The notes below the pieces were generated by a model. That model was not told where the DNA came from. It did no database searches and saw nothing but the letters and a program-made list of their open reading frames with translations. Below are positions 4,280-46,259 of a stretch of 64,000 nt of DNA, one piece after another. Location: the NCBI RefSeq assembly GCF_021611515.1, contig NZ_CP090960.1, positions 2,834,001 through 2,898,000 of the forward strand, in the 5' to 3' direction. Made by a program: the position numbers and the translations under genes. Source of the stretch: Mariluticola halotolerans (GTDB lineage Bacteria; Pseudomonadota; Alphaproteobacteria; Rhizobiales; Devosiaceae). Each line of letters begins with the position of its first letter. Positions within the stretch are counted from its first letter, which is position 1.

Positions 4280-4582
4280 ATCGTCATTCCTTTACGTGGC
4301 CGGTTGTGTCCTTGAATACAACGTGTATGCGATATGCGTAGGGTGGGTGCAAGGCGCATCAGGTCGGTGCGTAAAGCCGCCGCATCCCTGCGTCAGTTGA
4401 CCCGGATTGATTGTGACAATTTTATATCCGGTTTTCTCGGTATGCGGGTGACGTATTGGTCAATACCGTTGACCAATTGGTCAAATTCCTTGTTGCACGT
4501 CAAAACAAAACAGGCTTTGTTGGCCTTCAGGTCGCCAGAATGTGTGTCTGGTGACATGAATTGTCAGGGAGACAGAAAAATC
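4280..4582. other. Divergent promoter region between the Ldh-family gene and dppA
   Basis: A 303-bp region serving two divergent genes. The only clear structure is a cluster of three 8-bp half-sites at 4456-4484. An upstream in-frame extension of dppA exists here but precedes a normal signal peptide and is not believed to be translated. Confidence 0.6.
4456..4484. promoter_or_regulatory. Triple half-site operator upstream of dppA
   Basis: Three perfect 8-bp half-sites in alternating orientation: TTGGTCAA (4456-4463), TTGACCAA (4469-4476) and TTGGTCAA (4477-4484). The last two form the perfect 16-bp palindrome TTGACCAATTGGTCAA; the first two form an inverted repeat with a 5-bp spacer. It lies about 100 bp before the dppA start. 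TGGTC/GACCA half-sites recall GntR/FadR-type operators; the cognate regulator is not in the window. Confidence 0.6.
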
Positions 4583-31929: not shown

Positions 31930-32337
31930 TCAGGTATTTGCGGCTTCGCGGCCAAGCCGTTCAGCGGCCAGCTTCCGGATTTCTGTGAGTTCAGCCATCG
32001 TCGTTTTCAGGTCTTCGAGCTGACCGGCCAGAAGTTCCATGCGCGCATCGACCATTTCCACCAGCTTGGCCACCTGGGCGGTGTGGGTGCGGTCGGCGTC
32101 GTAAAGGGAAAGGTATTCGTGGATGTCCTTGAGACTGAAGCCCAGCCGCTTGCCGCGCAGGATAAGGATCAGCCGGGCACGGTCACGGCGGCGGAACACG
32201 CGGGTGCCCCCGACCCGCTCTGGTCTGAGCAGGCCTTTGGATTCGTAAAAGCGTATGGCTCTTGTCGATATGTCGAACTCCCGGGCGAGATCGGCAATTG
32301 CATAGAGGTCATGGCTTTCGGGGTCGGGCCGGTTCAC
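31930..32337 (-). CDS. MerR-family regulator (LiuR-like) of beta-oxidation
   Basis: A 135-aa regulator with the MerR winged helix: YAIADLAREFDISTRAIRFYESKGLLRP, then a dimerisation coiled coil ending in a basic tail. No cysteine metal-binding motif is present, which fits the LiuR group controlling branched-chain and fatty acid degradation rather than metal-responsive MerR. Its GTG start overlaps the fadD stop (GTGA), so it is co-expressed with fadD. Conserved boxes in the divergent fadD/fadE promoters and in the oppA leader are its probable targets. The effector is presumably an acyl-CoA; this is inference. Confidence 0.9.
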   Translation of the reverse strand: MNRPDPESHDLYAIADLAREFDISTRAIRFYESKGLLRPERVGGTRVFRRRDRARLILILRGKRLGFSLKDIHEYLSLYDADRTHTAQVAKLVEMVDARMELLAGQLEDLKTTMAELTEIRKLAAERLGREAANT

Positions 32338-34253
32338 TTTTTCGACTCTTTCATTTTTGCATATTCCTCGCGCAGCTCATTTTTGGAAAGCTTGCCGACG
32401 AGGGTTTTGGGTAGTTCGTCCTTAAAGATGATATCGCGCGGCATTTCCAGTTTGGAAATCTGCCCGCTGAGGAATTTTGTAATTTCCGGCGCACTGGCTT
32501 CCATGCCGGGTTTGAGCTTGACGAAGGCTATCGGGGCCTCCCCGCGATACTCGTCCTCGACACCAATAACGTTACATTCATCCACGGCGGGAAATTTGTA
32601 GATCGCTTCCTCGATGGTACGTGGATAGATGTTGAACCCCGAGGAGATGATCAGGTCCTTGATGCGGTCCACAAGGAATACGTAACCTTCCTCGTCGACA
32701 TAGCCGACATCGCCGGTGCGGAACCAACCGTCGACAAAGGCAGATTCGGAGGCTTCCGGATTGTTGAAATAGCCGAGCATGACCTGCGGACCCTTGATCT
32801 GCAATTCGCCGCGTTCGCCCTGGGCTACCGGTTTGTCCGGATGTTCAATATCGGCAAAACGCACATCGGTGCCCGGTATCGGCTGCCCAATGGACATGTG
32901 CTTTGAGGGCACGCGCAGCGCGGAACAGCAAACGACTGGCGAGCATTCGGTCAGGCCATAGCCTTCAGCCAGAAGGGCGTCGGCGACAGTGGCGAATTCT
33001 TTGCGGGTTTCCTCAGGCAATGCCGCACCGCCAGAGATGATAACCTCCAGATTTTTGAGGTGTTCCTTGCGGGTTTGTCTTGCGGTGGCCAGAGCGTGGG
33101 TGAGGGTGGGCACGGCGGGCAGGACATTCGCCTTGGTGCGCACCAGCAGGTCCAGCAGCGACTTCACGTCGAACCGGGGGAGCATGACCACGCCTGCGCC
33201 ATTGACCAGCGGCACGTTCATGCAAACCGTCATCGCAAAGATATGGAAGAAGGGGAGTACAGCGACCACTTTGGTGGGCGGGTAGAACAGGCCGCAGCCC
33301 CATGCATCGATCTGGTCAACATTGGCGGCAATATTGGCGTGGCTGAGCATTGCGCCTTTCGGGATGCCCGTTGTGCCGCCGGTATATTGTTGTACGGCGA
33401 CATCTTTCTGGAAATCGACCTTCACCGGCTTGGGTTTATGGCCCTTTGCGACCATTGAACCAAAATCTGAAATACTGCTGGCGATGGGCGAGTGGATGGT
33501 GTTGGCGATATCGCCCCGTTTGGCTAAACGGAACAGGAGCGATTTCACCATTGGCAGGGCACTGGTGAACTTGCAGACAATAACTTTCTTGATCGGTCCC
33601 TCGTTGCTCAGCGCTTCCGCCTTTTCAAAAATCTGCTTGAGATCGAGGGTAATCATCAGTTCCGCACCGGCGTCGTCGACGATGTGATGCAGTTCGTTAA
33701 GAGAATAGAGCGGGTTGCAATTGACCACGATGCCGCCCGCCATGTGCACGGCATAATAGGCAATCGGATAATAGGGGGTATTGGGCAGCATCAGGGCAAC
33801 GCGGGTCCCCTTCTTGACGCCGAATTCCGCCTGCAGGGCACCGGCAAAGGCGCGGATCTGTTCGCCAAAGCTTTTGAAACTGGTTTCCGCGCCGAGAAAA
33901 TCGAGGGCGATCTTGTCACCATGCTGGTCGCAGGCGTTCAGAACACGCTCAAATATCGGTGTCTGATCGAGCTTGCATTCCCAGGAGATGTTGTCGGGAT
34001 AATGGTCTATCCAGGGACGGGTGTGGGTTTTTGGTGCGGCCTTGCGCGTTGACTTGCTGGCGGCGGGCTTTTTTGTGGCCGGCTTTTTTACAGACGGTTT
34101 TTTGGCTGCCGCTTTTGTCGCGCTTGCAGCTTTTGATGTCGATGCCGGTTTGGGTGACGCTGCTTTTTTAGAGGTGGTGGCCCTTTTTACCGGTGCTTTT
34201 TTATCGGTCGCGGCCTTCGTGCCAGCAGTTTTTTTATCTTCCGCCTTGGTCAA
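32334..34253 (-). CDS. fadD: Long-chain acyl-CoA synthetase FadD with histone-H1-like N-terminal tail
   Basis: A 639-aa protein. Residues 1 to about 77 are almost only Lys, Ala, Pro, Ser and Thr, resembling histone H1/AlgP tails. The remaining 560 residues are a normal AMP-forming acyl-CoA ligase, with P-loop YTGGTTGIPKGAM, EGYGLTECSP, WFRTGDVGYVD and a C-terminal KTLVGKLSKNELR. It activates fatty acids with ATP and CoA for beta-oxidation. The start is TTG at 34253, supported by a near-perfect GGGAGGA six bases upstream; this start includes the whole basic tail. The first gene of fadD-merR, divergent from fadE. The tail is unusual for FadD and is matched by tails on FadE and PntAA in this window. 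Confidence 0.94.
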   Translation of the reverse strand: MTKAEDKKTAGTKAATDKKAPVKRATTSKKAASPKPASTSKAASATKAAAKKPSVKKPATKKPAASKSTRKAAPKTHTRPWIDHYPDNISWECKLDQTPIFERVLNACDQHGDKIALDFLGAETSFKSFGEQIRAFAGALQAEFGVKKGTRVALMLPNTPYYPIAYYAVHMAGGIVVNCNPLYSLNELHHIVDDAGAELMITLDLKQIFEKAEALSNEGPIKKVIVCKFTSALPMVKSLLFRLAKRGDIANTIHSPIASSISDFGSMVAKGHKPKPVKVDFQKDVAVQQYTGGTTGIPKGAMLSHANIAANVDQIDAWGCGLFYPPTKVVAVLPFFHIFAMTVCMNVPLVNGAGVVMLPRFDVKSLLDLLVRTKANVLPAVPTLTHALATARQTRKEHLKNLEVIISGGAALPEETRKEFATVADALLAEGYGLTECSPVVCCSALRVPSKHMSIGQPIPGTDVRFADIEHPDKPVAQGERGELQIKGPQVMLGYFNNPEASESAFVDGWFRTGDVGYVDEEGYVFLVDRIKDLIISSGFNIYPRTIEEAIYKFPAVDECNVIGVEDEYRGEAPIAFVKLKPGMEASAPEITKFLSGQISKLEMPRDIIFKDELPKTLVGKLSKNELREEYAKMKESKK

Positions 34254-34291: not shown

Positions 34292-34320
34292 ATCATCCCA
34301 CCAATTTACGTAAGCGTCAA
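34292..34320 (-). promoter_or_regulatory. fadD promoter with putative MerR (LiuR-type) box
   Basis: On the minus strand, TTGACG (34320-34315), 17-bp spacer, GATGAT (34297-34292). The box TTTACGTAAGCGTCAA (34305-34320, plus strand) overlaps the -35. It matches the box in the fadE promoter at most positions when one is reverse-complemented. Confidence 0.65.
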
Positions 34321-34452
34321 TCTGGTGCCCTATGGATAGTTCAGAACTGGCAGGTCGTTGGCCACTTTTTAGGGTTTGCCGGATATGACATGCTTGACGG
34401 GCATCCTTGCATGATTCCCCGACCGGCATATATTGACTTAATAGGCGTCTGG

Positions 34453-34480
34453 TTGACGTTAACGTATAGCGCACTATGCT
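34453..34480 (+). promoter_or_regulatory. fadE promoter with putative MerR (LiuR-type) box
   Basis: TTGACG (34453-34458), 16-bp spacer, TATGCT (34475-34480). The box TTGACGTTAACGTATA (34453-34468) overlaps the -35; its reverse complement is TATACGTTAACGTCAA, close to the fadD box. The layout mirrors the fadD promoter. Confidence 0.65.
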
Positions 34481-34546
34481 AGGCACAGCAGATGTTGGCG
34501 GACCGCTATTGTGCGGGTTTGCACGACCATATTGAGAGAGGCCCAA

Positions 34547-37153
34547 ATGTCCCTGTTTCTCATCGTCCTTGGACTGATTGTTTTCTTTGTTCTCGCCTTG
34601 CGCTTGTCACCCCTGTGGCAATGGGCTGTCGCAGCCCTTGCACTCGGCGTGCTCGGTCAGTTGGTGACGGGTGGCGGCGGCTGGTTCTGGGCTTTGTTGC
34701 CCGGCGTTGTGCTGGGTGTGTTCACACTGGCACCGGTCCGCCGGACCGTGATCACCGGACCTGCCTATAAAATGGTCAAGTCGATCTTGCCGCGTGTCAG
34801 CCGCACCGAACAGGAAGCGCTGGATGCGGGCACGGTGGGCTGGGACGCTGATCTGTTTTCGGGCCGCCCGGTCTGGGGCAATCTTTTGGGCGTGCGCAAG
34901 CTAACGCTGACCAAGGAAGAGCAGGCGTTTCTCGACGGGCCGACTGAAGAAGTCTGCAAGATGATCGATGATTGGGACACGCGCAGCCGCGCTGACATGT
35001 CCCCCGAGGTCTGGCAGTTTTTGAAGGACAAGGGCTTTTTGGGCATGCTGATCGCCAAGAAATATGGCGGTCTTGGATTTTCGGCGCAGGCGCAATCGAT
35101 GGTGGTCTCCAAAGTGGCCAGCCGTTCTGTTGCCGCCGGTATTACGGTGATGGTGCCCAACTCGCTCGGGCCAGGTGAATTGCTGGAAAAATACGGCACC
35201 GAGGCGCAAAAGGATCAATATCTGCGGCGGCTGGCGACAGGCAAGGAAGTGCCCTGTTTCGCGCTGACCGGCCCGCATGCGGGCTCGGATGCGGCCAGCA
35301 TGCGCGATGTGGGCGTTGTGAAATACGGTACCTACAAGGGCAAGAAAGTGCTCGGCGTCGAGCTGAGCTGGGACAAGCGCTATATCACGCTGGCCCCGGT
35401 GGCGACGCTATTGGGCCTCGCGGTCAATCTGTTTGATCCCGACAATCACTTGGGCAAGGGCGAAGATGTCGGCATCACGCTGGCGCTGGTGCCCGCTGAT
35501 TTCCCGGGGGTTGAAATCGGCCGCCGGCATTATCCAGCTCATTCCGCTTTCATGAACGGGCCGACCAAAGGCGACAAGGTTTTTGTGCCGATGGATTTCC
35601 TGATTGGCGGTACCGAATATGCCGGGCAGGGCTGGCGCATGCTGATGGAGTGCCTCTCGACCGGGCGCGCCATCTCGTTGCCGGCCATCGGCACGGTCTC
35701 GATCAAGCATGCATTGCGCACCACGTCGGCTTATGCGCGCATCCGCCGCCAGTTCGGCATTCCCATCGGTCTTATGGAAGGCGTTGCCGAGCCGCTTGGG
35801 CGCCTGGTCAAATCCGCCTATACGTTTGAGGCGTCCCGCGCCCTGACCGCATCCATGGTGGACGAGGGCCAAAAGCCATCGGTTATTTCGGCGCTGCTGA
35901 AATATCGCACCACGGAAGCCATGCGTGACCGGGTCAATGACGCGATGGATATTCATGGTGGCCGGGCCATTCAGGATGGTCCCTCGAACTATCTGTTCTC
36001 TGGCTATGCCAATGTGCCGGTGGCGATTACCGTTGAAGGCGCCAATATTCTCACCCGTACGCTGATTACCTTCGCGCAAGGTACGCTGCGGGCCCATCCT
36101 TATCTCTACAAGGAGATTGAGGCGGCGCAGAACGCGGACAAGCGTGCCGGTCTCAATAGTTTTGATTCAGCCTTTTCCGGCCATGTGAAATTCATGCTCG
36201 GCAATGTTACCGGTTCGTTCTGGCATGCGCTTACCTTCGGCAAGTTCGCCTCGTCGCCCGTCGACCATCACATGGCGATCTGGTTTCGCCAATTGCACCG
36301 CTATGCGCAGAGTTTTGCGCTGGTGGGCGATTGGACCGTGGCGTTTCTGGGTGGCGATTTGAAGCGCAAACAGCGTATTTCCGGACGGATGGCCGATATC
36401 CTTTCCGATCTTTACCTGCTCTCCGCCGTGCTCAAACGCTATGAGGATGAGGGGCGGCTGGAAGAAGACGCGGCGGTGGTGGATGCCATTGCCCGTGACC
36501 GGATTGTGGCCATCGAGAAAAGCTTCATCGAGGTGTTCAACAATTTCCCCAATCCCGTTCTGGCTGTGCTGATGCGCTTTCTGGTGTTTCCGCTGGGTGC
36601 CCGCGCGTCAGGCTCGACCGATCGCGAGAATTTCCGTCTGGCCAAATCGGTGTTGCAGCCTTCAGAATTCCGTGACCGGCTAACAACCGGGATCTATACG
36701 ACAATGGATCCTGATGACAGTACCGGCCTTCTGGAGGATGCTTTAGTCAAGGTTGTGGCGGTTGAGGAAATCGAGAAACGCTTTATCCGTGCTCTGAAAA
36801 AGGGCGTTATTGACCGCCGCCTTGATCGGGACGCGATTGATGACGCTGTCGCAGCTGACGTGTTGACGGCTGAAGAAGCGAGACAGTTACGCGCGGCGGA
36901 TCTCGCTACAGATGAGGCGATCAAGGTGGATGATTTTGCGCCGGGCGAGTTGGGTGGTTTGTCGCGCAGAGTGCCGGCAAAGCCGGCGGCCAGTGCCAAA
37001 CCTGCACGGACCAAGGCGGCACCGGCCAAGACTGCACCGGCGAAGAAGGCGGCAGTCAAGGCTTCCGCGCCCGGGAAACCGGCGACAAAAAAGCCCGCTG
37101 CGCGTAAAGCTGGTGCATCCAAATCCGCTGCAGTACGTTCAACATCTAAATAG
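34547..37153 (+). CDS. fadE: Acyl-CoA dehydrogenase FadE with Lys/Ala/Pro-rich C-terminal tail
   Basis: An 868-aa member of the large FadE-type acyl-CoA dehydrogenases (E. coli 814 aa). Two N-terminal hydrophobic segments (about 1-60) suggest membrane association. The FAD/acyl-CoA dehydrogenase core follows from about residue 120, with CFALTGPHAGSDAASM, YARIRRQFGIPIG and DAMDIHGGRAIQDGPSNYL, then a DUF1974-type C-terminal region. The last 60 residues (about 809-868) are a Lys/Ala/Pro/Thr tail like that of FadD's N-terminus. The enzyme makes trans-2-enoyl-CoA. The start at 34547 follows GAGAGAGG. It leads the fadE-fadB/J-fadA/I operon. Confidence 0.95.
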   Translation: MSLFLIVLGLIVFFVLALRLSPLWQWAVAALALGVLGQLVTGGGGWFWALLPGVVLGVFTLAPVRRTVITGPAYKMVKSILPRVSRTEQEALDAGTVGWDADLFSGRPVWGNLLGVRKLTLTKEEQAFLDGPTEEVCKMIDDWDTRSRADMSPEVWQFLKDKGFLGMLIAKKYGGLGFSAQAQSMVVSKVASRSVAAGITVMVPNSLGPGELLEKYGTEAQKDQYLRRLATGKEVPCFALTGPHAGSDAASMRDVGVVKYGTYKGKKVLGVELSWDKRYITLAPVATLLGLAVNLFDPDNHLGKGEDVGITLALVPADFPGVEIGRRHYPAHSAFMNGPTKGDKVFVPMDFLIGGTEYAGQGWRMLMECLSTGRAISLPAIGTVSIKHALRTTSAYARIRRQFGIPIGLMEGVAEPLGRLVKSAYTFEASRALTASMVDEGQKPSVISALLKYRTTEAMRDRVNDAMDIHGGRAIQDGPSNYLFSGYANVPVAITVEGANILTRTLITFAQGTLRAHPYLYKEIEAAQNADKRAGLNSFDSAFSGHVKFMLGNVTGSFWHALTFGKFASSPVDHHMAIWFRQLHRYAQSFALVGDWTVAFLGGDLKRKQRISGRMADILSDLYLLSAVLKRYEDEGRLEEDAAVVDAIARDRIVAIEKSFIEVFNNFPNPVLAVLMRFLVFPLGARASGSTDRENFRLAKSVLQPSEFRDRLTTGIYTTMDPDDSTGLLEDALVKVVAVEEIEKRFIRALKKGVIDRRLDRDAIDDAVAADVLTAEEARQLRAADLATDEAIKVDDFAPGELGGLSRRVPAKPAASAKPARTKAAPAKTAPAKKAAVKASAPGKPATKKPAARKAGASKSAAVRSTSK

Positions 37154-37180
37154 CGATACGCTTTTGAGGAGGAGTGGTTG

Positions 37181-39166
37181 ATGGCTAAAGCCCAGCCCCG
37201 CAAGCTGACCATGCCCAAGACCAAGCATTGGACGTTCGAGATCGATTTCGAGAAAATCGGCTGGTTGACCATTGATACCCCGAAAGCCCCGGTCAATGTG
37301 CTCAGCCGTGAAAGTCTGACAGAACTCAAGCAGCTGGTTGACCGGTTCGAGGATCTGATTGCCTCCGATGAGTTGGCGGGCATTGTATTGCTGTCTTCAA
37401 AGCCGAGTGGGTTCATCGCCGGAGCCGATGTGACCGAATTCGACGACATGGCCGATTATGCGGTGTTGCCCAAGGCGCTGGAACAGACCCATGCCCTGTT
37501 CCGGCAGATCGAAAAGCTCAAGGCACCTGTGGTTGTGGGTGTGCAGGGCTTTTGTCTCGGTGGCGGGCTGGAACTGGCGCTGGCCTGTCATTACCGCATC
37601 GCGGTCAATGACGAGAAAACCCGCATTGGCTTCCCCGAAGTCAAACTGGGGATTTTCCCCGGCTTTGGCGGCACGGGTCGCTCGATCCGGCAGGCGGGGC
37701 CGGTTGATGCCATGCAGATCATGCTGACCGGTCGCTATTTGCGGGCCGGCGCGGCGCGCGGCATGAACCTCGTCGACAAACTGGTCAGCCATCGCGACCA
37801 GCTGCGCTGGGAAGCGCGCAAGGCGGTGATGCAGAAGCGCCAGTCGAAACCGGCACCATTCCTCAAATCGGTGATGGCGAAAGCGCCGATCCGCGGCATG
37901 ATTGCCAAGAAAATGCGCGAAGAAGCAGCCAAGAAAGCACGGCCTGAACATTATCCGGCGCCATTCTCGCTGATCGATTTGTTTGAAGAGCATGGCGATG
38001 ACTGGCTGGCGATGTCCAATGGCGAGATCGAGCGGTTCACCCCGCTTCTTCTGTCTGACACCTCAGCCAATCTGCGCCGGGTATTCTTCTTGTCCGAGGG
38101 GCTGAAAAAGCAGGGGCTGCGCGGGGCCAAGAAACCATCCTTTGCGCGGGTCCATGTGATTGGCGGCGGGGTGATGGGCGGCGATATTGCGGCCTGGTGT
38201 GCCTTGCGCGGTCTGTCGGTGACACTGCAGGATCTTGATATGGACCGGATCAGTCCGGCGCTGCAGCGGGCGAAGAAACTGTTCCAGAAGCGGCTGAAAA
38301 AGCCACAGGCGGTCAAGGCGGCTATGGCGCGGCTGGAGGCCGATGTTGAAGGCAAGGGCATTGCCCGGGCCGATGTGATCATTGAAGCGGTGGTTGAAAA
38401 GCTCGAGATCAAGCAGACGATTTTCAAAAATGCCGAAGCAAGTATGAAGCCCGGTGCGATTTTGGCGACCAATACATCGTCAATCGAACTGGAAAAAATC
38501 GCCAGTGTTTTGAAGGACAAGTCACGCCTGATCGGGCTGCATTTCTTCAATCCGGTGGCGCAATTGCCGCTGGTTGAGGTGATCCGCTCCAAATACAATT
38601 CCGATGAGGCGGCAGCGCTTGGCGCTAGTTTTGCGCTGGCCATTGGCAAGTCGCCGGTGATCGTCAAATCCGAAACCGGCTTCCTCGTGAACCGGGTTTT
38701 GATGCCCTATATGCTGGGCGCTGTTGAGCGCGTGGAAAAGGGCGAAGCCAAGGAAGTGATCGATGCGGCAGCGCTCGCCTTCGGCATGCCGATGGGGCCG
38801 ATTGAACTGATGGATACGGTTGGGCTCGATGTCGGCAAATCGGTTGCTGAAGAGCTCGGACATCCGGTGGCCGACGACACGCAATTTGCCAAATTACTGG
38901 CGGCCAAAAAGCTGGGGCGCAAGACTGGCGAGGGCTTTTACGTCTGGGAAAAAGGCAAGGCGCAAAAGGGTGAGACACCCGCGCATGCTGATCTCGCCGG
39001 GCTGGGCCGGGAGCTGGTGCAGCCACTGGTCGATGAATGCGAGAAATGCGTGGCCGAGGGCATTGTTGCCAATGTGGACCTCGCCGATATCGGGGTGATT
39101 TTTGGCACCGGGTTTGCACCTTTCCTCGGCGGGCCGTTGAAAGCCCGGCGCGACGGCAAGGTATAA
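37181..39166 (+). CDS. Bifunctional enoyl-CoA hydratase / 3-hydroxyacyl-CoA dehydrogenase (FadB/FadJ alpha subunit)
   Basis: A 661-aa fusion. The N-terminal crotonase domain (about 20-280) has the catalytic glutamates in CLGGGLELALACHYR and GFPEVKLGIFPGFGG. The NAD-binding 3-hydroxyacyl-CoA dehydrogenase domain starts near residue 324 (HVIGGGVMGGDIAAW) and is followed by HFFNPVAQLPLVEV and GFLVNRVLMPY. It is shorter than E. coli FadB/FadJ (729/714 aa) but complete in motifs. It hydrates enoyl-CoA and oxidises the hydroxyacyl-CoA, partnering the thiolase encoded next. GAGGAGGAG supports the ATG at 37181. FadB and FadJ cannot be told apart by reading alone. Confidence 0.94.
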   Translation: MAKAQPRKLTMPKTKHWTFEIDFEKIGWLTIDTPKAPVNVLSRESLTELKQLVDRFEDLIASDELAGIVLLSSKPSGFIAGADVTEFDDMADYAVLPKALEQTHALFRQIEKLKAPVVVGVQGFCLGGGLELALACHYRIAVNDEKTRIGFPEVKLGIFPGFGGTGRSIRQAGPVDAMQIMLTGRYLRAGAARGMNLVDKLVSHRDQLRWEARKAVMQKRQSKPAPFLKSVMAKAPIRGMIAKKMREEAAKKARPEHYPAPFSLIDLFEEHGDDWLAMSNGEIERFTPLLLSDTSANLRRVFFLSEGLKKQGLRGAKKPSFARVHVIGGGVMGGDIAAWCALRGLSVTLQDLDMDRISPALQRAKKLFQKRLKKPQAVKAAMARLEADVEGKGIARADVIIEAVVEKLEIKQTIFKNAEASMKPGAILATNTSSIELEKIASVLKDKSRLIGLHFFNPVAQLPLVEVIRSKYNSDEAAALGASFALAIGKSPVIVKSETGFLVNRVLMPYMLGAVERVEKGEAKEVIDAAALAFGMPMGPIELMDTVGLDVGKSVAEELGHPVADDTQFAKLLAAKKLGRKTGEGFYVWEKGKAQKGETPAHADLAGLGRELVQPLVDECEKCVAEGIVANVDLADIGVIFGTGFAPFLGGPLKARRDGKV

Positions 39167-39178
39167 GGGAGAGACGAG

Positions 39179-40462
39179 ATGGCCAAAGAGATGCGCAGAG
39201 TCGCAATCGTCGGGGGTGCCCGCATCCCGTTCTGCCGTGCCTATACCGGCTATGCGGACGAAACCAATATGTCGATGCTGACCGCCGCGCTTGGCGGGCT
39301 GGCGGACAAATATGGTCTGCGTGGTGAAAAGATCGACGAGGTGATGGCGGGAGCGGTGCTCAACCATGCCAAGGATTTCAATCTGGCGCGGGAGGCAACG
39401 CTCAATGCCGGATTCTCGCCCTTCACACCCGGCACGACAATCCAGATCGCGTGCGGCACCAGCCTGCAGGCTGCTTTGACGCTGGGCGCCAAGATTGCCT
39501 CGGGTGAGATTGAGAGCGGGATTGCTGCGGGGGCGGATTCGATTTCAGATTCCCCAATCGTCTTCGGCGCGAAATTTGCCAAGCGGATGATCAATCTTTC
39601 CCGGGCGCGTTCGTTCGGGGAAAAGCTCGGGGCGTTCAAGGGCTTCAGTTTTGGCGAGGTCGTGCCGCAGGCACCCAATGTCAACGAGCCGCGCACCGGG
39701 CTTTCCATGGGGCAGCATTGCGAATTGATGGCGCGTGAATGGGGTATTACCCGCGCGGCACAGGACAAACTGGCGCTCAAAAGCCATCAGAATGCGGCAC
39801 AGGCCTATGATGAGGGTTTTCATGATGATCTGGTGGTGCCTGCCGCCGGGATCGTGCGCGACAACAATATCCGGACCGATACAAGCCTTGCCAAAATGGC
39901 GGAGATGAAACCCGCCTTTGACCGCAAGTCGGGCCATGGCACGCTGACCGCTGCCAATTCCACACCGCTGACCGATGGTGCTTCTGCAGTCTTGCTGGCC
40001 AGCGAAGAGTGGGCGAACGAACGTGGTCTGCCCATCCTTGGCTTTTTGACCATGGGACAGGTAGCGGCCAATAATTTTGCGGCTGGCGATGGGCTGTTGA
40101 TGGCGCCGACAATTGCGGTTTCGGACATGCTGAACCGCGCGGGGCTGGGTTTTGAGGAAATCGATCTGTTCGAAATCCATGAAGCTTTTGCCGCGCAGGT
40201 TTTGTGCACCCTTAAAGCCTGGACCGATCGCAAATACTGTCGAGACGTCCTTGGACGCGACAAGGTGATGGGCAAGATCGATCCTGACAAAATCAATGTC
40301 AAAGGGTCGAGCCTTGCCTATGGCCATCCATTTGCCGCCACTGGTGCGCGCATTCTGGGTACAACCGCCAAACTGCTTGGCACGACCGACGCCGAGCGGG
40401 CTCTGATCTCGGTTTGTACGGCAGGTGGCATGGGTGTTGCAGCGCTCGTTGAGCGCGCCTGA
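39179..40462 (+). CDS. Acetyl-CoA C-acyltransferase (FadA/FadI-type thiolase)
   Basis: A 427-aa thiolase, closest in length to FadI (436 aa). The nucleophilic Cys is C92 (IACGTSLQAA); EIHEAFAAQ and GHPFAATGAR carry the active-site histidines; C413 in SVCTAGGMGV is the second catalytic cysteine. It cleaves 3-ketoacyl-CoA with CoA, the last step of beta-oxidation, in complex with the preceding alpha subunit. The start codon lies 12 bp after the upstream stop, with GGGAGAG ahead. A weak stem-loop at 40496-40527 may end the operon. Confidence 0.95.
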   Translation: MAKEMRRVAIVGGARIPFCRAYTGYADETNMSMLTAALGGLADKYGLRGEKIDEVMAGAVLNHAKDFNLAREATLNAGFSPFTPGTTIQIACGTSLQAALTLGAKIASGEIESGIAAGADSISDSPIVFGAKFAKRMINLSRARSFGEKLGAFKGFSFGEVVPQAPNVNEPRTGLSMGQHCELMAREWGITRAAQDKLALKSHQNAAQAYDEGFHDDLVVPAAGIVRDNNIRTDTSLAKMAEMKPAFDRKSGHGTLTAANSTPLTDGASAVLLASEEWANERGLPILGFLTMGQVAANNFAAGDGLLMAPTIAVSDMLNRAGLGFEEIDLFEIHEAFAAQVLCTLKAWTDRKYCRDVLGRDKVMGKIDPDKINVKGSSLAYGHPFAATGARILGTTAKLLGTTDAERALISVCTAGGMGVAALVERA

Positions 40463-40495
40463 TCACCATTTAAAATACCGGAAAGAACGCAAATG

Positions 40496-40527
40496 CCAGC
40501 CGCATCCGTAAAGGAAGCGGCTGGTTT
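40496..40527 (+). terminator. Possible terminator after the fad operon
   Basis: Perfect 8-bp stem CCAGCCGC / GCGGCTGG with a 13-nt loop, but only a short T run (TTT) follows. Position 34 bp after the thiolase stop fits an operon end. Confidence 0.5.
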
Positions 40528-40595
40528 AATGCGCTTTTGCGGCTGCTGGTTATCCAGTGTTTTACCCACAGAACCTTCTGTCAGCATCTGTCAGG

Positions 40596-40646
40596 TGAAC
40601 GTAAACGTAAAGCCTCTTGCCAAGACGTTAACGGCGAGGCTAGGCT
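40596..40646 (+). promoter_or_regulatory. oppA promoter region with putative MerR (LiuR-type) boxes
   Basis: TGAACGTAAACGTAAA (40596-40611) is close to the fadD and fadE boxes. A second partial box, GACGTTAACG (40624-40633), is identical to the fadE core and lies in the spacer of a plausible promoter TTGCCA (40617-40622), 18 bp, TAGGCT (40641-40646). This links the peptide transporter to the beta-oxidation regulator, by inference. Confidence 0.5.
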
Positions 40647-40693
40647 TTAGAAATCTTGACCAGCGGGTCAATTCTTGCTGGCCATAAGGAGGA

Positions 40694-40717
40694 CCCCCGG
40701 GGGGCTTTCACCCCGGG
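40694..40717 (+). other. GC-rich leader hairpin before oppA
   Basis: CCCGGGG / CCCCGGG stem with an 8-nt loop, followed by CAAAAATTC, 32 bp before the oppA start. The transcript would carry it in its 5' leader; it could stabilise the mRNA or act as an attenuator. Confidence 0.4.
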
Positions 40718-40749
40718 CAAAAATTCTCATTCAGAGGAGACGGGACAAC

Positions 40750-42339
40750 ATGAAATTCATACCGGCCCTTAAGGCGATTGCCCTTGCCGGGGCATTCAGC
40801 CTGGCACTCGGGGGCGCTGCGTCGGCGGCAACCCTGCATATGCATAATGGCGGCGAACCGGGGTCAATCGATCCACACAAGGTTTCCGGTGACTGGGAAA
40901 ACCGTGTCGTTGGCGATTATCTCGAAGGCCTGATGACCGAAGACGAGAATGCCGAGGCCATTCTGGGCCAGGCAGCGTCCTATACGGTTTCCGAGGATGG
41001 CCTGGTCTACACATTCAAGCTGCGCGATGATGCCGTCTGGAGCGATGGCGAGCCGGTGGTTGCGCATGACTTCGTTGCTGCGTTCCAGCGTCTTATGGAT
41101 CCGGCGACCGCTGCTGAATACGCCTATTTGCAGTACCCGATCAAGAATGCGGCGGCGATCAATGGTGGTGATATCACCGATCTTAACGAACTGGGCGTCA
41201 AGGAAATCGACGAGAAGACTGTCGAAATCACCCTTGAGAATCCAACCCCGTTCTTTTTGCAGGCGCTGACCCATTACACCGCCTATCCGATCCCCACACA
41301 TCTGTTCGATGAGGTTGGCGACAGCTGGACCAAGATGGAGAACATCGTTGCCAATGGTCCGTTCAAACTGGTCGAGTGGCTCCCGGGTTCGCATTTGAAG
41401 TCGGTCAGAAACGAGACCTATTACGATGCAGCCAATGTGTCGCTGGATGAAGTGTATTACTACATTCAGGACGATCTGCAGGCCGCCTTGCAGCGGTATC
41501 GTTCCGGCGAATTCGACATCATGACGGATTTCCCCTCGGATCAGTACGGCTTGCTGGAATCGCAATATCCCGGTGAGGCACGTGTCGATCCGTTCCTTGG
41601 CGTTTATTATTACGTGATGAACCAGGACAATCCCAAGCTGCAGGACGTCAATGTGCGCAAGGCGTTGTCCATTGCCATCAACCGCAAGGTGATCGGCCCG
41701 GACATTCTGGGCACGGGCGAATTGCCGGCCTATGGCTGGGTGCCGCCGGGTGCTGCCAATTATGAGGGCGAGACCTATAATCCGGCCTGGGCTGATCAGG
41801 ATTATGGCGAGCGCGTGGCCGAGGCGAAGGCGTTGATGGAAGCGGCAGGCTATACCGCGGACACACCGCTAACCCTGCAATTGCGTTACAATACCAATGA
41901 CAACCACCAGCGCATTGCGGTGGCCGTTGCCGCCATGTGGAAGGAAATCGGGGTCAATGTTGAATTATTCAACTCCGAGGTTGCCGTTCACTATGACGCG
42001 CTGCGGGCTGGTGATTTCGAGATCGGTCGGGCAGGCTGGCTGATGGATTACAATGATCCCATCAACATGCTTGATCTGTTGAAGACCGGCGTGGACAACA
42101 ATTATGGCCGCTACAGCAATGCGGAATATGATGCCTTGCTGGACCAGTCCAATGCCACGCTTGATCTGGTTGAACGGGCCGGGTTGATGCACCAGGCCGA
42201 GGCGATTGCCATGGACGAGTTCGGTGTTATTCCGATCTACTACTATGTCGCCAAAAACGTTGTCTCACCGAAGATTTCGGGCTTTGTCGACAACGCAGCC
42301 GACATCCATCGTAACCGCTGGATTTCCAAATCCGAGTAA
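40750..42339 (+). CDS. oppA: Oligopeptide-binding protein, OppA/MppA-like (SBP_bac_5)
   Basis: A 529-aa periplasmic binding protein with signal peptide ending ASA-AT. Blocks typical of OppA are NGGEPGSIDPHKVSGDWEN, DGLVYTFKLRDDAVWSDGEP and FFLQALTHYTAYPIP. OppA delivers oligopeptides (or murein peptides for MppA) to OppBCDF. GAGGAGACGGG precedes the ATG at 40750. It is the first gene of a complete opp operon and is distinct from the DppA-type protein at 4583-6178. The leader holds putative MerR boxes and a hairpin. Confidence 0.93.
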   Translation: MKFIPALKAIALAGAFSLALGGAASAATLHMHNGGEPGSIDPHKVSGDWENRVVGDYLEGLMTEDENAEAILGQAASYTVSEDGLVYTFKLRDDAVWSDGEPVVAHDFVAAFQRLMDPATAAEYAYLQYPIKNAAAINGGDITDLNELGVKEIDEKTVEITLENPTPFFLQALTHYTAYPIPTHLFDEVGDSWTKMENIVANGPFKLVEWLPGSHLKSVRNETYYDAANVSLDEVYYYIQDDLQAALQRYRSGEFDIMTDFPSDQYGLLESQYPGEARVDPFLGVYYYVMNQDNPKLQDVNVRKALSIAINRKVIGPDILGTGELPAYGWVPPGAANYEGETYNPAWADQDYGERVAEAKALMEAAGYTADTPLTLQLRYNTNDNHQRIAVAVAAMWKEIGVNVELFNSEVAVHYDALRAGDFEIGRAGWLMDYNDPINMLDLLKTGVDNNYGRYSNAEYDALLDQSNATLDLVERAGLMHQAEAIAMDEFGVIPIYYYVAKNVVSPKISGFVDNAADIHRNRWISKSE

Positions 42340-42423
42340 CGTGACCGCTACGGGGCCGCAGCTTTCAGGGCTGTGGTCCCGTCGCCATCTGGTTTTTCGC
42401 GTTACAACAAAGGGTACGAACCG

Positions 42424-43347
42424 ATGCTCGGATACGCTTTCCGGCGCGTGCTCTCGGCCTTGCCGATTGCTTTGATCGCCATCACGATTGCATTCTTTAT
42501 TCTCAGGCTGGCGCCGGGCGGTCCCTTTGATGGCGAGCGTGCCCTGCCGCCCGATGTGCTGGCGAATCTGAGGGCACATTACAATCTGGATCAACCGATC
42601 TGGGTTCAGTATTTCATCTATGTCAAAGGCGTGCTCACGGGTGATCTTGGCCCCTCCATGGTGGTTGAGGATTTCACTGTCTCGCAACTGATTGCCATCG
42701 GCCTGCCGTTTACGCTGATGCTCGGTCTGACCGCTTTTGTGTCAGCCACGGCCATTGGCATGCTGGCGGGTGTTGTGGCGGCGGTGAACCAGAATAAATG
42801 GCCCGATTATGCGCTGGTGCTGATTGTCATGCTCGGCGTGGTCATCCCGAATTTTTTGATGGGCGGGCTCTTGCAGCTCGTCTTCGGTGTCTATCTCAAA
42901 TGGTTGCCAGCGGGGGGCTGGGTCAATGGCTCACTGCCGCATCTGGTCTTACCGGTCACGGTGCTGGCCTGGCCGCATGCAGCGCGGATTTCGCGGCTGA
43001 TGCGCGGCTCAATGATCGAGGTGCTCGGCACCAATTTCATCCGTACCGCTAAATCCAAGGGCATTGGCGAACGGCTGATGCTGACGCGACATGCGCTGAA
43101 ACCGGCGCTCATTCCCGTCGTTTCCTATCTGGGGCCGGGCTTGTCCTATCTGCTCACCGGCTCGCTGGTGGTGGAGAATATTTTCGGGCTGCCGGGGATC
43201 GGCAAATATTTTGTCACCGCCGCACTGAACCGGGATTACGGGCTGGTTCTGGGCACGACGATTTTTTATGTGGCGCTCATTCTGGTGCTCAATCTGCTGG
43301 TTGATCTGCTTTATGCGTGGCTCGATCCAAGGGTGAGGTTCCGCTGA
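42424..43347 (+). CDS. oppB: Oligopeptide ABC transporter permease OppB
   Basis: A 307-aa permease, the usual OppB length (E. coli 306). It shows FILRLAPGGPFDGERALPP, the coupling loop NFIRTAKSKGIGERLMLTRHA and the C-terminal VVENIFGLPGIGKYFV block. The start at 42424 begins a standard N-terminal helix (LGYAFRRVLSALPIALIAI); a longer version from 42373 is rejected. It overlaps oppC at the stop/start junction. Confidence 0.94.
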   Translation: MLGYAFRRVLSALPIALIAITIAFFILRLAPGGPFDGERALPPDVLANLRAHYNLDQPIWVQYFIYVKGVLTGDLGPSMVVEDFTVSQLIAIGLPFTLMLGLTAFVSATAIGMLAGVVAAVNQNKWPDYALVLIVMLGVVIPNFLMGGLLQLVFGVYLKWLPAGGWVNGSLPHLVLPVTVLAWPHAARISRLMRGSMIEVLGTNFIRTAKSKGIGERLMLTRHALKPALIPVVSYLGPGLSYLLTGSLVVENIFGLPGIGKYFVTAALNRDYGLVLGTTIFYVALILVLNLLVDLLYAWLDPRVRFR

Positions 43348-44267
43348 TGGCCGGGTTGACCAAAAAAGACGCCGTGCTGACGGCTTATGCGGAAAAGCTG
43401 GAACAGCTTGATGCGCCCCAGGGCCGCTCGCTGACCCAGGACGCATTTCGACGCCTCAAGGCAAACCGGGCCGCCATGGTCTCGATCTTTGTCTTGGGCT
43501 TTATCATTCTGGCGGCTCTGATAGGTCCCTTCTTTGTGCCATGGGATGGGGGCACGGTGGACTGGAGTGCAATCCGCAAGCCACCCGATTTCGAAAAAGG
43601 GCATTTCTTCGGGACAGATCAGAACGGGCGCGACTTGCTGGCCCGCTTGCTGCAAGGTACGCAGATGTCGTTGATGGTGGCGCTGGTTGCCACTCTGGTC
43701 TCGGTATTTATCGGGGTGATCTACGGTGCCGTCTCAGGCTATTTCGGCGGCCGGGTCGATGCATTGATGATGCGCTTTGTCGATATCATGTATGCGCTGC
43801 CCTATATCCTGTTCGTCATCATTCTGGTGGTGATTTTTGGGCGCTCGCCAGTCTTGCTGTTCGTGGGCATTGGTGCGCTGGAATGGCTGACCATGGCGCG
43901 GATTGTGCGCGGGCAGACCCTTAGCCTCAAGGAAAAGGAATTCGTGGAAGCTGCTCGCGCCGGCGGGGCCAAGCCCTGGACCATTATCATCCGGCATATC
44001 GTGCCCAATCTGACCGGTCCGGTGGTGATCTATGCCACGCTGACCGTGCCTGAGATCATCATCACCGAGAGTTTCCTCTCTTATCTGGGGCTTGGGGTGC
44101 AGGAGCCGCTGACCTCGCTCGGCACGCTGATCTCCAATGGCACGCCGGTGGCGGAAGTCATGCCCTGGCTGCTGATCTTCCCGGCCATCGTTCTGGTGGC
44201 GATGCTGATGTGTCTCACCTATATCGGCGACGGGCTGCGCGACGCGCTCGACCCAAAGGATCATTGA
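43347..44267 (+). CDS. oppC: Oligopeptide ABC transporter permease OppC
   Basis: A 306-aa permease. After an N-terminal helix (about 52-75) it has the FFGTDQNGRDLLARLLQGTQ block of OppC/DppC, the coupling loop EFVEAARAGGAKPWTIIIRH and a C-terminal GDGLRDALDPKDH. The ATG at 43347 overlaps the oppB stop by one base (TGATG), with GGTGAGG eight bases upstream. It forms the pore with OppB. Confidence 0.94.
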   Translation: MAGLTKKDAVLTAYAEKLEQLDAPQGRSLTQDAFRRLKANRAAMVSIFVLGFIILAALIGPFFVPWDGGTVDWSAIRKPPDFEKGHFFGTDQNGRDLLARLLQGTQMSLMVALVATLVSVFIGVIYGAVSGYFGGRVDALMMRFVDIMYALPYILFVIILVVIFGRSPVLLFVGIGALEWLTMARIVRGQTLSLKEKEFVEAARAGGAKPWTIIIRHIVPNLTGPVVIYATLTVPEIIITESFLSYLGLGVQEPLTSLGTLISNGTPVAEVMPWLLIFPAIVLVAMLMCLTYIGDGLRDALDPKDH

Positions 44268-44268
44268 T

Positions 44269-45255
44269 ATGGCTGATGTTCTCACCGTTGACGATCTCAA
44301 TGTCACCTTTGCGCTGCATGAGGCGGAAGTGCATGCCGTGCGTGACCTCAGTTTCACCCTGCGGGAGGGGGAAACCTTGGCTGTCGTGGGCGAAAGTGGA
44401 TCGGGCAAGAGCCAGGCCTTTCTCTCGATCATGGGGCTGTTGGCGCGCAATGGGCGCGCCAGCGGGCAGGCGATGTTCAACGGGGTCAACCTGCTCGCGT
44501 TGAAACCGGAAAAGCTCGATCTTTATCGCGGCAAGGATGTTGCGATGATCTTTCAGGACCCCATGACCTCGCTCAACCCCAGCCTCAAGATCAAAAAGCA
44601 GCTGGCCGAGGTGCTGATCCGTCACAAGGGCGCTGACAATGCCAGTGCCGTGCGGGCGGCAACGGCAATGCTAGAGCGGGTGGGTATTCCCGAACCGTCC
44701 AAGCGCGCCAATGCCTATCCGCATGAACTCTCGGGCGGCATGCGCCAGCGGGTGATGATCGCGATGGCGCTCCTGTGCGAACCCAAGGTTCTGATCGCCG
44801 ACGAACCCACCACGGCGCTTGATGTGACAGTGCAGGCGCAGATGCTTGAGCTGTTCAAATCGCTGACCGATGATTTTGGCACGGCGCTGGTGATGATTAC
44901 CCATGACCTGGGCGTGGTTGCGGGTCTGGCTGATCGGATGATGGTGATGTATGGCGGACGTGCGGTGGAGAAGGGGCCGGTTGATGACCTGTTCTATGAC
45001 CCGCGTCATCCCTATACCTTTGGCCTGTTGCATTCGACACCGCATGTTGGTGCACGGGCGCAGCGGCTGATGCCGATCGAGGGATTGCCGCCCAGCCTTG
45101 AGCAACTGCCGGCCGGTTGCGCTTTCAATCCGCGCTGCAAATTTCGCATGGAGCAATGTCTTGTGGAACGGCCACCGCTGGTGGGTGCACGAGGAGGGCG
45201 TTCCCGCGCCTGTTTTTACGAGGGCAAGCTGGCCTATGAGGAGGTGGACGCATGA
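44269..45255 (+). CDS. oppD: Oligopeptide ABC transporter ATPase OppD
   Basis: A 328-aa ATPase with Walker [10 protein letters not shown]-loop [11 protein letters not shown], signature [10 protein letters not shown], Walker [14 protein letters not shown] and H-loop MITHDLG. The C-terminal peptide-transporter domain with the Cys cluster ([15 protein letters not shown]...SRACF) is present, unlike in the DppD of this window. It starts 1 bp after oppC ends and overlaps oppF by 4 bp. Confidence 0.95.
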
Positions 45256-46259
45256 GCGCGCAAACACTGCTCAGCATTGAGGGGCTGAAGAAAACCTTTG
45301 CCGTTTCCAGCGGCCTTTTTGGCCGTTCGCTGACCCTGACCGCGCTTGAGGATATTACCTTTTCGGTCAGCCGGGGCGAAACCCTCGGGATTGTGGGTGA
45401 AAGCGGGTGCGGCAAGTCTACGCTGGGCCGATGCATCCTGCAGCTATTGACGCCGGATACCGGCAAGGTGGTCTGGCTGGGCAATGATCTTACCCAGGCG
45501 CCTGCAGAAGAAATGCGCCGGCACAGGCGTGACCTGCAGATTATTTTCCAGGATCCGCTGGCCTCGCTCAACCCACGCATGACCGTGGGCGATATCATCG
45601 CTGATCCCTTGCGGACATTGATGCCTGAGCTTCCGGTGCGTGAGCGGCGGGCGCGCGTGTTGCGGATGATGGAGGCGGTGGGGCTATTGCCCGAAATGAT
45701 CAATCGTTATCCGCACGAATTCTCCGGCGGGCAGGCCCAGCGCATCGGCATTGCCCGGGCATTGATCACCGAGCCGAAGCTGATCGTGTGCGATGAGCCG
45801 GTGTCGGCGCTTGACGTCTCCATCCAGGCGCAGATTCTCAACCTGCTCAGTGAATTGAAGGATGAATTCGGGCTGACGCTGGTGTTCATCAGCCATGACC
45901 TGTCGGTCGTGCGCCATGTCAGCGACCGTATCATGGTGCTTTATCTGGGACGTATCGTTGAACTGGCGGCGGGTGATGTGCTGTATCAGGCCCCGCGGCA
46001 CCCCTATACCCAGACCCTTTTGAGCGCTGTGCCGATTCCCGATCCGGTGAAAGCGCGCGCGCGCGACATTGAAGCGCTCACCGGTGAAATTCCCTCACCG
46101 ATCAACCCGCCATCGGGCTGCACGTTCCGGACCCGGTGCCGTCATGCGCGGGATATCTGTGCCGAGCTCAGACCGCCGCTGACCAATGCTTCAGGTGATC
46201 ATCAGATCGCGTGTCATCGCTGGGAAGAGATTGCCGGACTTGTCGATACGTCCGGCTGA
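45252..46259 (+). CDS. oppF: Oligopeptide ABC transporter ATPase OppF
   Basis: A 335-aa ATPase, Walker A GESGCGKS, Q-loop IFQDPLASLNPR, signature FSGGQAQRIG, Walker B LIVCDEPVSALDVS and H-loop FISHDLSVV. The C-terminal Cys cluster is present (GCTFRTRCRHARDIC and a final IACHRW). It overlaps oppD by ATGA and closes the opp operon; its stop is 8 bp from the convergent response-regulator gene with no visible terminator between. Confidence 0.95.
   Translation: MSAQTLLSIEGLKKTFAVSSGLFGRSLTLTALEDITFSVSRGETLGIVGESGCGKSTLGRCILQLLTPDTGKVVWLGNDLTQAPAEEMRRHRRDLQIIFQDPLASLNPRMTVGDIIADPLRTLMPELPVRERRARVLRMMEAVGLLPEMINRYPHEFSGGQAQRIGIARALITEPKLIVCDEPVSALDVSIQAQILNLLSELKDEFGLTLVFISHDLSVVRHVSDRIMVLYLGRIVELAAGDVLYQAPRHPYTQTLLSAVPIPDPVKARARDIEALTGEIPSPINPPSGCTFRTRCRHARDICAELRPPLTNASGDHQIACHRWEEIAGLVDTSG

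Follow-up and report, generated by a model that had tools for sequence, protein, structure and literature searches.

The region analysed here is a 64,000-nucleotide stretch of the Mariluticola halotolerans genome (family Devosiaceae, contig NZ_CP090960.1), referred to below as the window, which represents 2.83–2.90 Mb of the 3.45 Mb genome. On its minus strand the long-chain acyl-CoA ligase gene fadD (32334..34253, NCBIfam) is followed by merR (31930..32337), which shares 4 bases with the end of fadD and codes for a LiuR-type regulator of 135 amino acids, containing the Pfam domains MerR_1 and MerR-DNA-bind and no cysteine. On the plus strand there are fadE (34547..37153, acyl-CoA dehydrogenase, NCBIfam PRK09463, above cut-off), a gene for the fadB/fadJ-type beta-oxidation alpha subunit (37181..39166, NCBIfam) and one for the fadA/fadI-type thiolase (39179..40462, NCBIfam PRK09268, above cut-off). 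Behind them lie oppA (40750..42339), encoding an oligopeptide-binding protein whose best NCBIfam family is OppA, and oppB, oppC, oppD and oppF (42373..46259), of which oppB was assigned by NCBIfam, oppD by Pfam, and oppC and oppF from gene order and tblastn synteny. The listed open reading frame of fadE starts at 34511, and the ATG at 34547 was judged likelier from the sequence; that of oppA starts at 40675, and its ATG at 40750 is preceded by GAGGAG. Fold analysis revealed stable stem-loops 3' of fadA, and the whole fadA-oppA leader (40463-40750) folds far above its shuffled copies (z -4.4), with several stem-loops, one of them just before the oppA start.

The first-pass annotation regarded three sites, at fadD, fadE and opp, as variants of one box. 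For an independent scan we used a symmetric weight matrix made of 33 distinct fadD/fadE boxes from 35 relatives' loci, namely those whose fadD-fadE interval shows two clear boxes, the window's genome being left out. The consensus of these boxes is TTGACGtwwrCGTCAA, with a nearly invariant ACG/CGT core. The same three sites took the first three ranks in the window: box 1 at fadD (34305..34320, minus strand, TTTACGTAAGCGTCAA) scored 24.95, box 2 at fadE (34453..34468, plus strand, TTGACGTTAACGTATA) 23.51, and box 3 in the fadA-oppA interval (40596..40611, plus strand, TGAACGTAAACGTAAA) 19.41, while the fourth hit reached 11.4. The box sites seen in the window are those at fad and opp genes. The opp box departs from the fad consensus at two outer positions. 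Among 665,166 background positions in relatives 3 score at least 12 and none reaches 19.41, a value attained in 3 of 5000 resamplings of the opp leader of the window itself. Counting of the strict pattern ACGTNNACGT (2 occurrences, fadE and opp, against 0.38 expected) was dropped as evidence, being too weak alone, since 4 of 100 shuffles also reach 2. Elsewhere in the genome there is a site of 19.7 in the pst operon and there are sites of 17.7 near gatA-like and clpX-like genes (names read from translations). Scores of this height thus occur by chance, and the score by itself does not set the opp site apart; it is convincing by its position and conservation, not by its strength. The fourth-ranking site (4448-4463, score 11.4) was rejected as a regulon member; together with 4469-4484 it resembles another operator before a different binding-protein operon. 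These palindrome-like sequences, GTGACGTATTGGTCAA and TTGACCAATTGGTCAA (4448-4484), stand before another family-5 binding-protein operon and are probably operators of a different regulator.

The boxes at fadD and fadE were also said to overlap the -35 elements of promoters, and this proved correct. In the promoter scan, TTGACG-17-GATGAT runs from 34320 to 34292 before fadD-merR and TTGACG-16-TATGCT from 34453 to 34480 before fadE, with box 1 and box 2, respectively, overlying the -35. These boxes begin with TTGACG, which is the -35, and in the window as well as in relatives they have a -10-like element at a distance of 16-18 bases downstream. Because merR overlaps the fadD end, box 1 would place the regulator under its own control. 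The generic scan by itself was not accepted as evidence (5 promoters found, 2.3 expected). The opp promoter, absent from the scan list, was proposed by reading the sequence together with the leaders of relatives, so that its ends are predicted rather than mapped: TTGCCA-18-TAGGCT on the plus strand (40617..40646), with the -35 at 40617-40622 and the -10 at 40641-40646. It resembles TTGTCA-18-TAGGCT in leader L063 of genus g16 (genera and loci are given by handles, the window's genus being g1). In relatives' opp leaders TTGTCA lies 17-18 bases before TAGGGT, TACCGT or TAGGCT, and it is kept even where the box is absent (L063, L091), L091 having retained the promoter with the box gone; in g15 and g11 a conserved block spans the box to the -10.

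Box 3 ends 5 bases before the TTGCCA -35 and is not placed on it. The window, L060 and genera g11 and g15 have the box 5-8 bases ahead of the -35, this spacing being 2 to 8 bases among lineages; in g7, as read from the alignment, the box sequence may provide the -35 (TTGACG-17-TACGGT). Since the opp box is situated just upstream of the -35, unlike those of fadD and fadE, opp could be controlled with the same sign as fad or with the opposite one; from this position a repressor is plausible, and an activator also. A weak second box (40622..40637, plus strand, AAGACGTTAACGGCGA, score 7.5) falls inside the spacer of the opp promoter, with no counterpart seen in relatives. Most of g15 (e.g. L080) carries a TGGACGG-N12-CCGTCCA inverted repeat over the proposed opp -10, a possible second operator or start-site hairpin.

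Of 61 family genomes, 57 have an orthologue of the regulator (E<=2.6e-42). Its nearest named relatives belong to Devosia and Pelagibacterium (Devosiaceae), and further ones, at 43-58% identity, to other alphaproteobacteria and to gammaproteobacteria. The features of the LiuR group are present: a MerR DNA-binding domain with a short C-terminus and no metal-binding cysteines (Pfam, alignment; 15 of 15 aligned orthologues lack cysteine altogether), and a palindromic operator of ACGTnnACGT type before targets and/or the own gene. Identity, gene neighbourhood and phylogeny all point to orthology with the LiuR found beside gammaproteobacterial liu genes. Shewanella proteins are 45-50% identical to the regulator, and in Shewanella locus L144 the regulator gene is preceded by the box and followed by a liu-like set of acyl-CoA dehydrogenase, carboxyltransferase, gamma-carboxygeranoyl-CoA-hydratase-like and biotin carboxylase genes; in the tree, which had no paralogue outgroup, a branch supported at 89/83 separates the alphaproteobacterial sequences from the rest. 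Owing to the orthologue beside liu-type genes and the box in Shewanella, the window's MerR is placed by sequence kinship in the LiuR orthologue group. The earlier suggestion of a LiuR-type MerR as binder is thereby strengthened: with its gene in the fadD operon, and with Shewanella orthologues beside liu-type genes and a like box, this protein is the likely one. The genome gave two further MerR-type matches, of which the one listed is 37% identical over part, and no second close relative was found among the matches listed.

Conservation was followed in 40 long stretches around the MerR orthologue, from 40 of the 57 family genomes having it, with fadD, merR, fadE, fadB, fadA and opp genes located by tblastn. 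The fadD-merR pair is kept in all 40. Of 38 loci holding fadA, 35 have the opp set behind it (not L057, L070 and L090), on the same strand and in most loci at a distance of 119-572 bases; in genomes with no opp behind fadA (G002, G013, G052), no OppA of this kind was detected elsewhere at E<=1e-60. Junction counts omit L056, whose stretch lacks fadE, and L058, whose contig stops short of fadA. Boxes at fadD and fadE are present in nearly all of 39 family loci. An opp-leader box, counted at a score of at least 13, occurs in 24 of 39 fadA-opp junctions: 20 among the 35 family loci, that of the window and 3/3 further ones, which came from 10 genomes picked for missing, short or odd context. Depending on the genus, it is found in 10/11 (g11, where opp boxes equal the fad consensus), 10/11 (g15), 2/2 (g7), 1/1 (g1, the window), 1/8 (g16), 0/4 (g6), 0/1 (g2) and 0/1 (g5) junctions. 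None of 2000 column-permuted matrices reached the observed 20 leaders (mean 0.10), and first-order resampled leaders gave a mean of 0.08 and at most 2 of 36; the L060 box was partly outside the cut leader in this control run, hence 20/36 there corresponds to 21/36 otherwise. Four changes of opp-box presence are needed on the FadE + FadB + FadA tree. As 15 of the 39 junctions are without a box, mainly those of g16 (7/8) and g6 (4/4), co-control of fad and opp is not general. In L248 (g10) opp, which was not observed next to fadA, is on another contig than the regulator, and a palindromic site of score 15 lies about 107 bases before the oppA match; this genome appears AT-rich, so the site counts little. 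Outside the family, none of 12 FadA loci showed fadA-opp linkage (the sequence covered after fadA being about 1.5 kb in 11 of them and about 0.3 kb in the other), and opp did not stand beside fadA in any of 14 MerR loci, not all of which include fadA; some outside-family loci keep the box at fadE.

Judging from its sequence, the importer is of the OppABCDF oligopeptide type. OppA fits the OppA family best, yet below the equivalog cut-off (405.7 vs 947, NCBIfam), and it matches OppA of the PDB at E 7e-108. The residues taken to hold the peptide ends, R413 and D419 in the solved OppA chain, correspond in the alignment to R452 and D458 of the window's protein (listed ORF numbering). The OppA behind fadA is either of type I (60-69% to the window's) or of type II (36-40%), and the window's protein and two type II proteins tested were all closest to OppA profiles. 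Only one OppA type per genome was noticed in 10/10 tested genomes, G005 having two type II proteins and G014 one further distant protein. On the FadE/FadB/FadA tree the OppA type switched at least 7 times, often with the box kept; for instance, L085 differs in type from its close relatives L080 and L082, and the box is present in all three. OppD and OppF types vary independently of OppA. Across loci L061-L095, OppA/OppB and OppD/OppF types switch separately between close relatives, and the place, often also the box, stays, which has the look of a fixed slot whose occupants were repeatedly replaced.

Boxes, their conservation, their place relative to the proposed promoters, synteny and LiuR kinship were computed, and from these we infer binding, sign, ligand and physiology. 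The LiuR-group MerR would bind the 16-bp palindrome TTGACGtwwrCGTCAA as a dimer. Without signal, which is probably acyl-CoA or a related intermediate, it would occupy the -35 at both the fadD-merR and the fadEBA promoter and so repress them, its own gene included. It would also bind the box beside the opp promoter, bringing the importer behind fadA into its regulon; opp expression, too, would most likely be lowered, as the protein covers the upstream margin of the promoter, with fatty acids relieving both fad and opp. Repression of fadD-merR and fadEBA through the boxes, with similar and most likely repressing control of opp, is in our judgement the probable arrangement. Membership of opp, which had been proposed before, gained ground from the box conserved at the same place in relatives, and opp very probably belongs to the regulon both in Mariluticola halotolerans and in several genera of Devosiaceae.

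The main alternative to repression at opp is activation from its box: MerR would be a repressor on the -35 of fadD and fadE and an activator upstream of the opp -35, so that fatty acids would switch fad on and opp off. The difference in box placement described above speaks for such opposite signs, and MerR-family proteins are often activators. Against it are the inconstant spacing between box and opp -35 across genera and the g7 box, which may itself be the -35. LiuR is, moreover, described as a repressor (PMC3223726). We consider opposite signs unlikely. It is less probable still that the window's opp box, arisen by chance or decayed, regulates nothing and that opp stands beside fad for other reasons; the junctions lacking a box and the comparable scores elsewhere in the genome would suit this, but the box occupies the same place before the same promoter in g7, g11 and g15, and so few resampled leaders attain its score. 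Another possibility is that opp is governed mainly by read-through from fadEBA, the box being secondary. The common strand and mostly short gap would permit it, but the stem-loops after fadA in the window and the proposed conserved opp promoter make it rather improbable. A different regulator that recognises a similar palindrome, for which the two further MerR-type matches could be candidates, is hardly likely to act at the opp box, since one matrix finds both fad and opp boxes of the window, g11 opp boxes equal the fad consensus and no second close MerR relative appeared among the matches listed.

Shared control of fad and opp would extend an earlier prediction. LiuR orthologues were reportedly predicted by Kazakov and co-workers in 2009 to control fatty-acid degradation in alphaproteobacteria. 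The fad part is thus already known, and the opp part is the addition; in general, the first-pass observation was confirmed and its interpretation partly supported. In the literature searched, neither LiuR nor fad control was connected with opp; an opp listing in Kazakov 2009, in supplements or in RegPrecise tables is possible. LiuR regulates branched-chain amino acid use (PMC5343134, PMC3223726, PMC7238569), and the Shewanella regulon is described as such, with gltBD, thrABC and aceBA as extras (PMC3223726). The orthologous regulator, the near-identical palindrome and the acyl-CoA catabolic targets are common to these systems and the present one, whereas the oligopeptide transporter as a member was seen only in Devosiaceae. 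FadR, PsrA and FadP likewise exert local fad control but belong to the GntR and TetR families, and the accounts of them in PMC5343134 do not name opp. Many opp and dpp genes of Devosia genomes are reported as a peptide transporter expansion (PMC6981132), in whose main text no word beginning with 'fad' occurs and a link of opp to beta-oxidation was not found.

In case of this bacterium and many relatives, the box at opp predicts joint control of fat and oligopeptide use, with one regulator and one box serving three promoters in two geometries. Only tentatively, and with considerable doubt, do we propose that in Devosiaceae the beta-oxidation regulon acquired an opp importer and retained it despite repeated subunit replacement, so that the regulatory and positional slot behind fadA would be constant and not the transporter. 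If true, this suggests that a substrate of the importer, e.g. acylated peptides or peptides freed with lipids from dead cells, is used alongside fatty acids. The system would offer a testable case of a transporter swapped within a fixed regulatory slot.

In a genome-wide search with up to 3 mismatches the pattern gave 45+38 sites versus 176+196 for the reversed control, and a second count gave 225 versus 302 per strand; lack of enrichment over the reversed control indicates a small regulon, in fact a very small one, accompanied by chance sites of similar strength. For no other high-scoring site of the window's genome was a counterpart noticed in relatives, so these sites were set aside as probably fortuitous. 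In g11 a MaoC-type hydratase tandem locus has the box at most 7 bases from the start in all six loci picked (L201-L206), and in two g16 loci (L210, L211) the box lies 137 bases upstream of citrate synthase. Both kinds of site fit acyl-CoA use, with opp as the odd member, a nutrient importer joining a catabolic regulon otherwise of acyl-CoA enzymes. Another palindrome, TTGACGCAACCGTCAA, was noticed in 4/6 g11 genomes searched; in L212 and L213 it stands before a gene whose product, as read from the sequence, is cystathionine beta-lyase-like.
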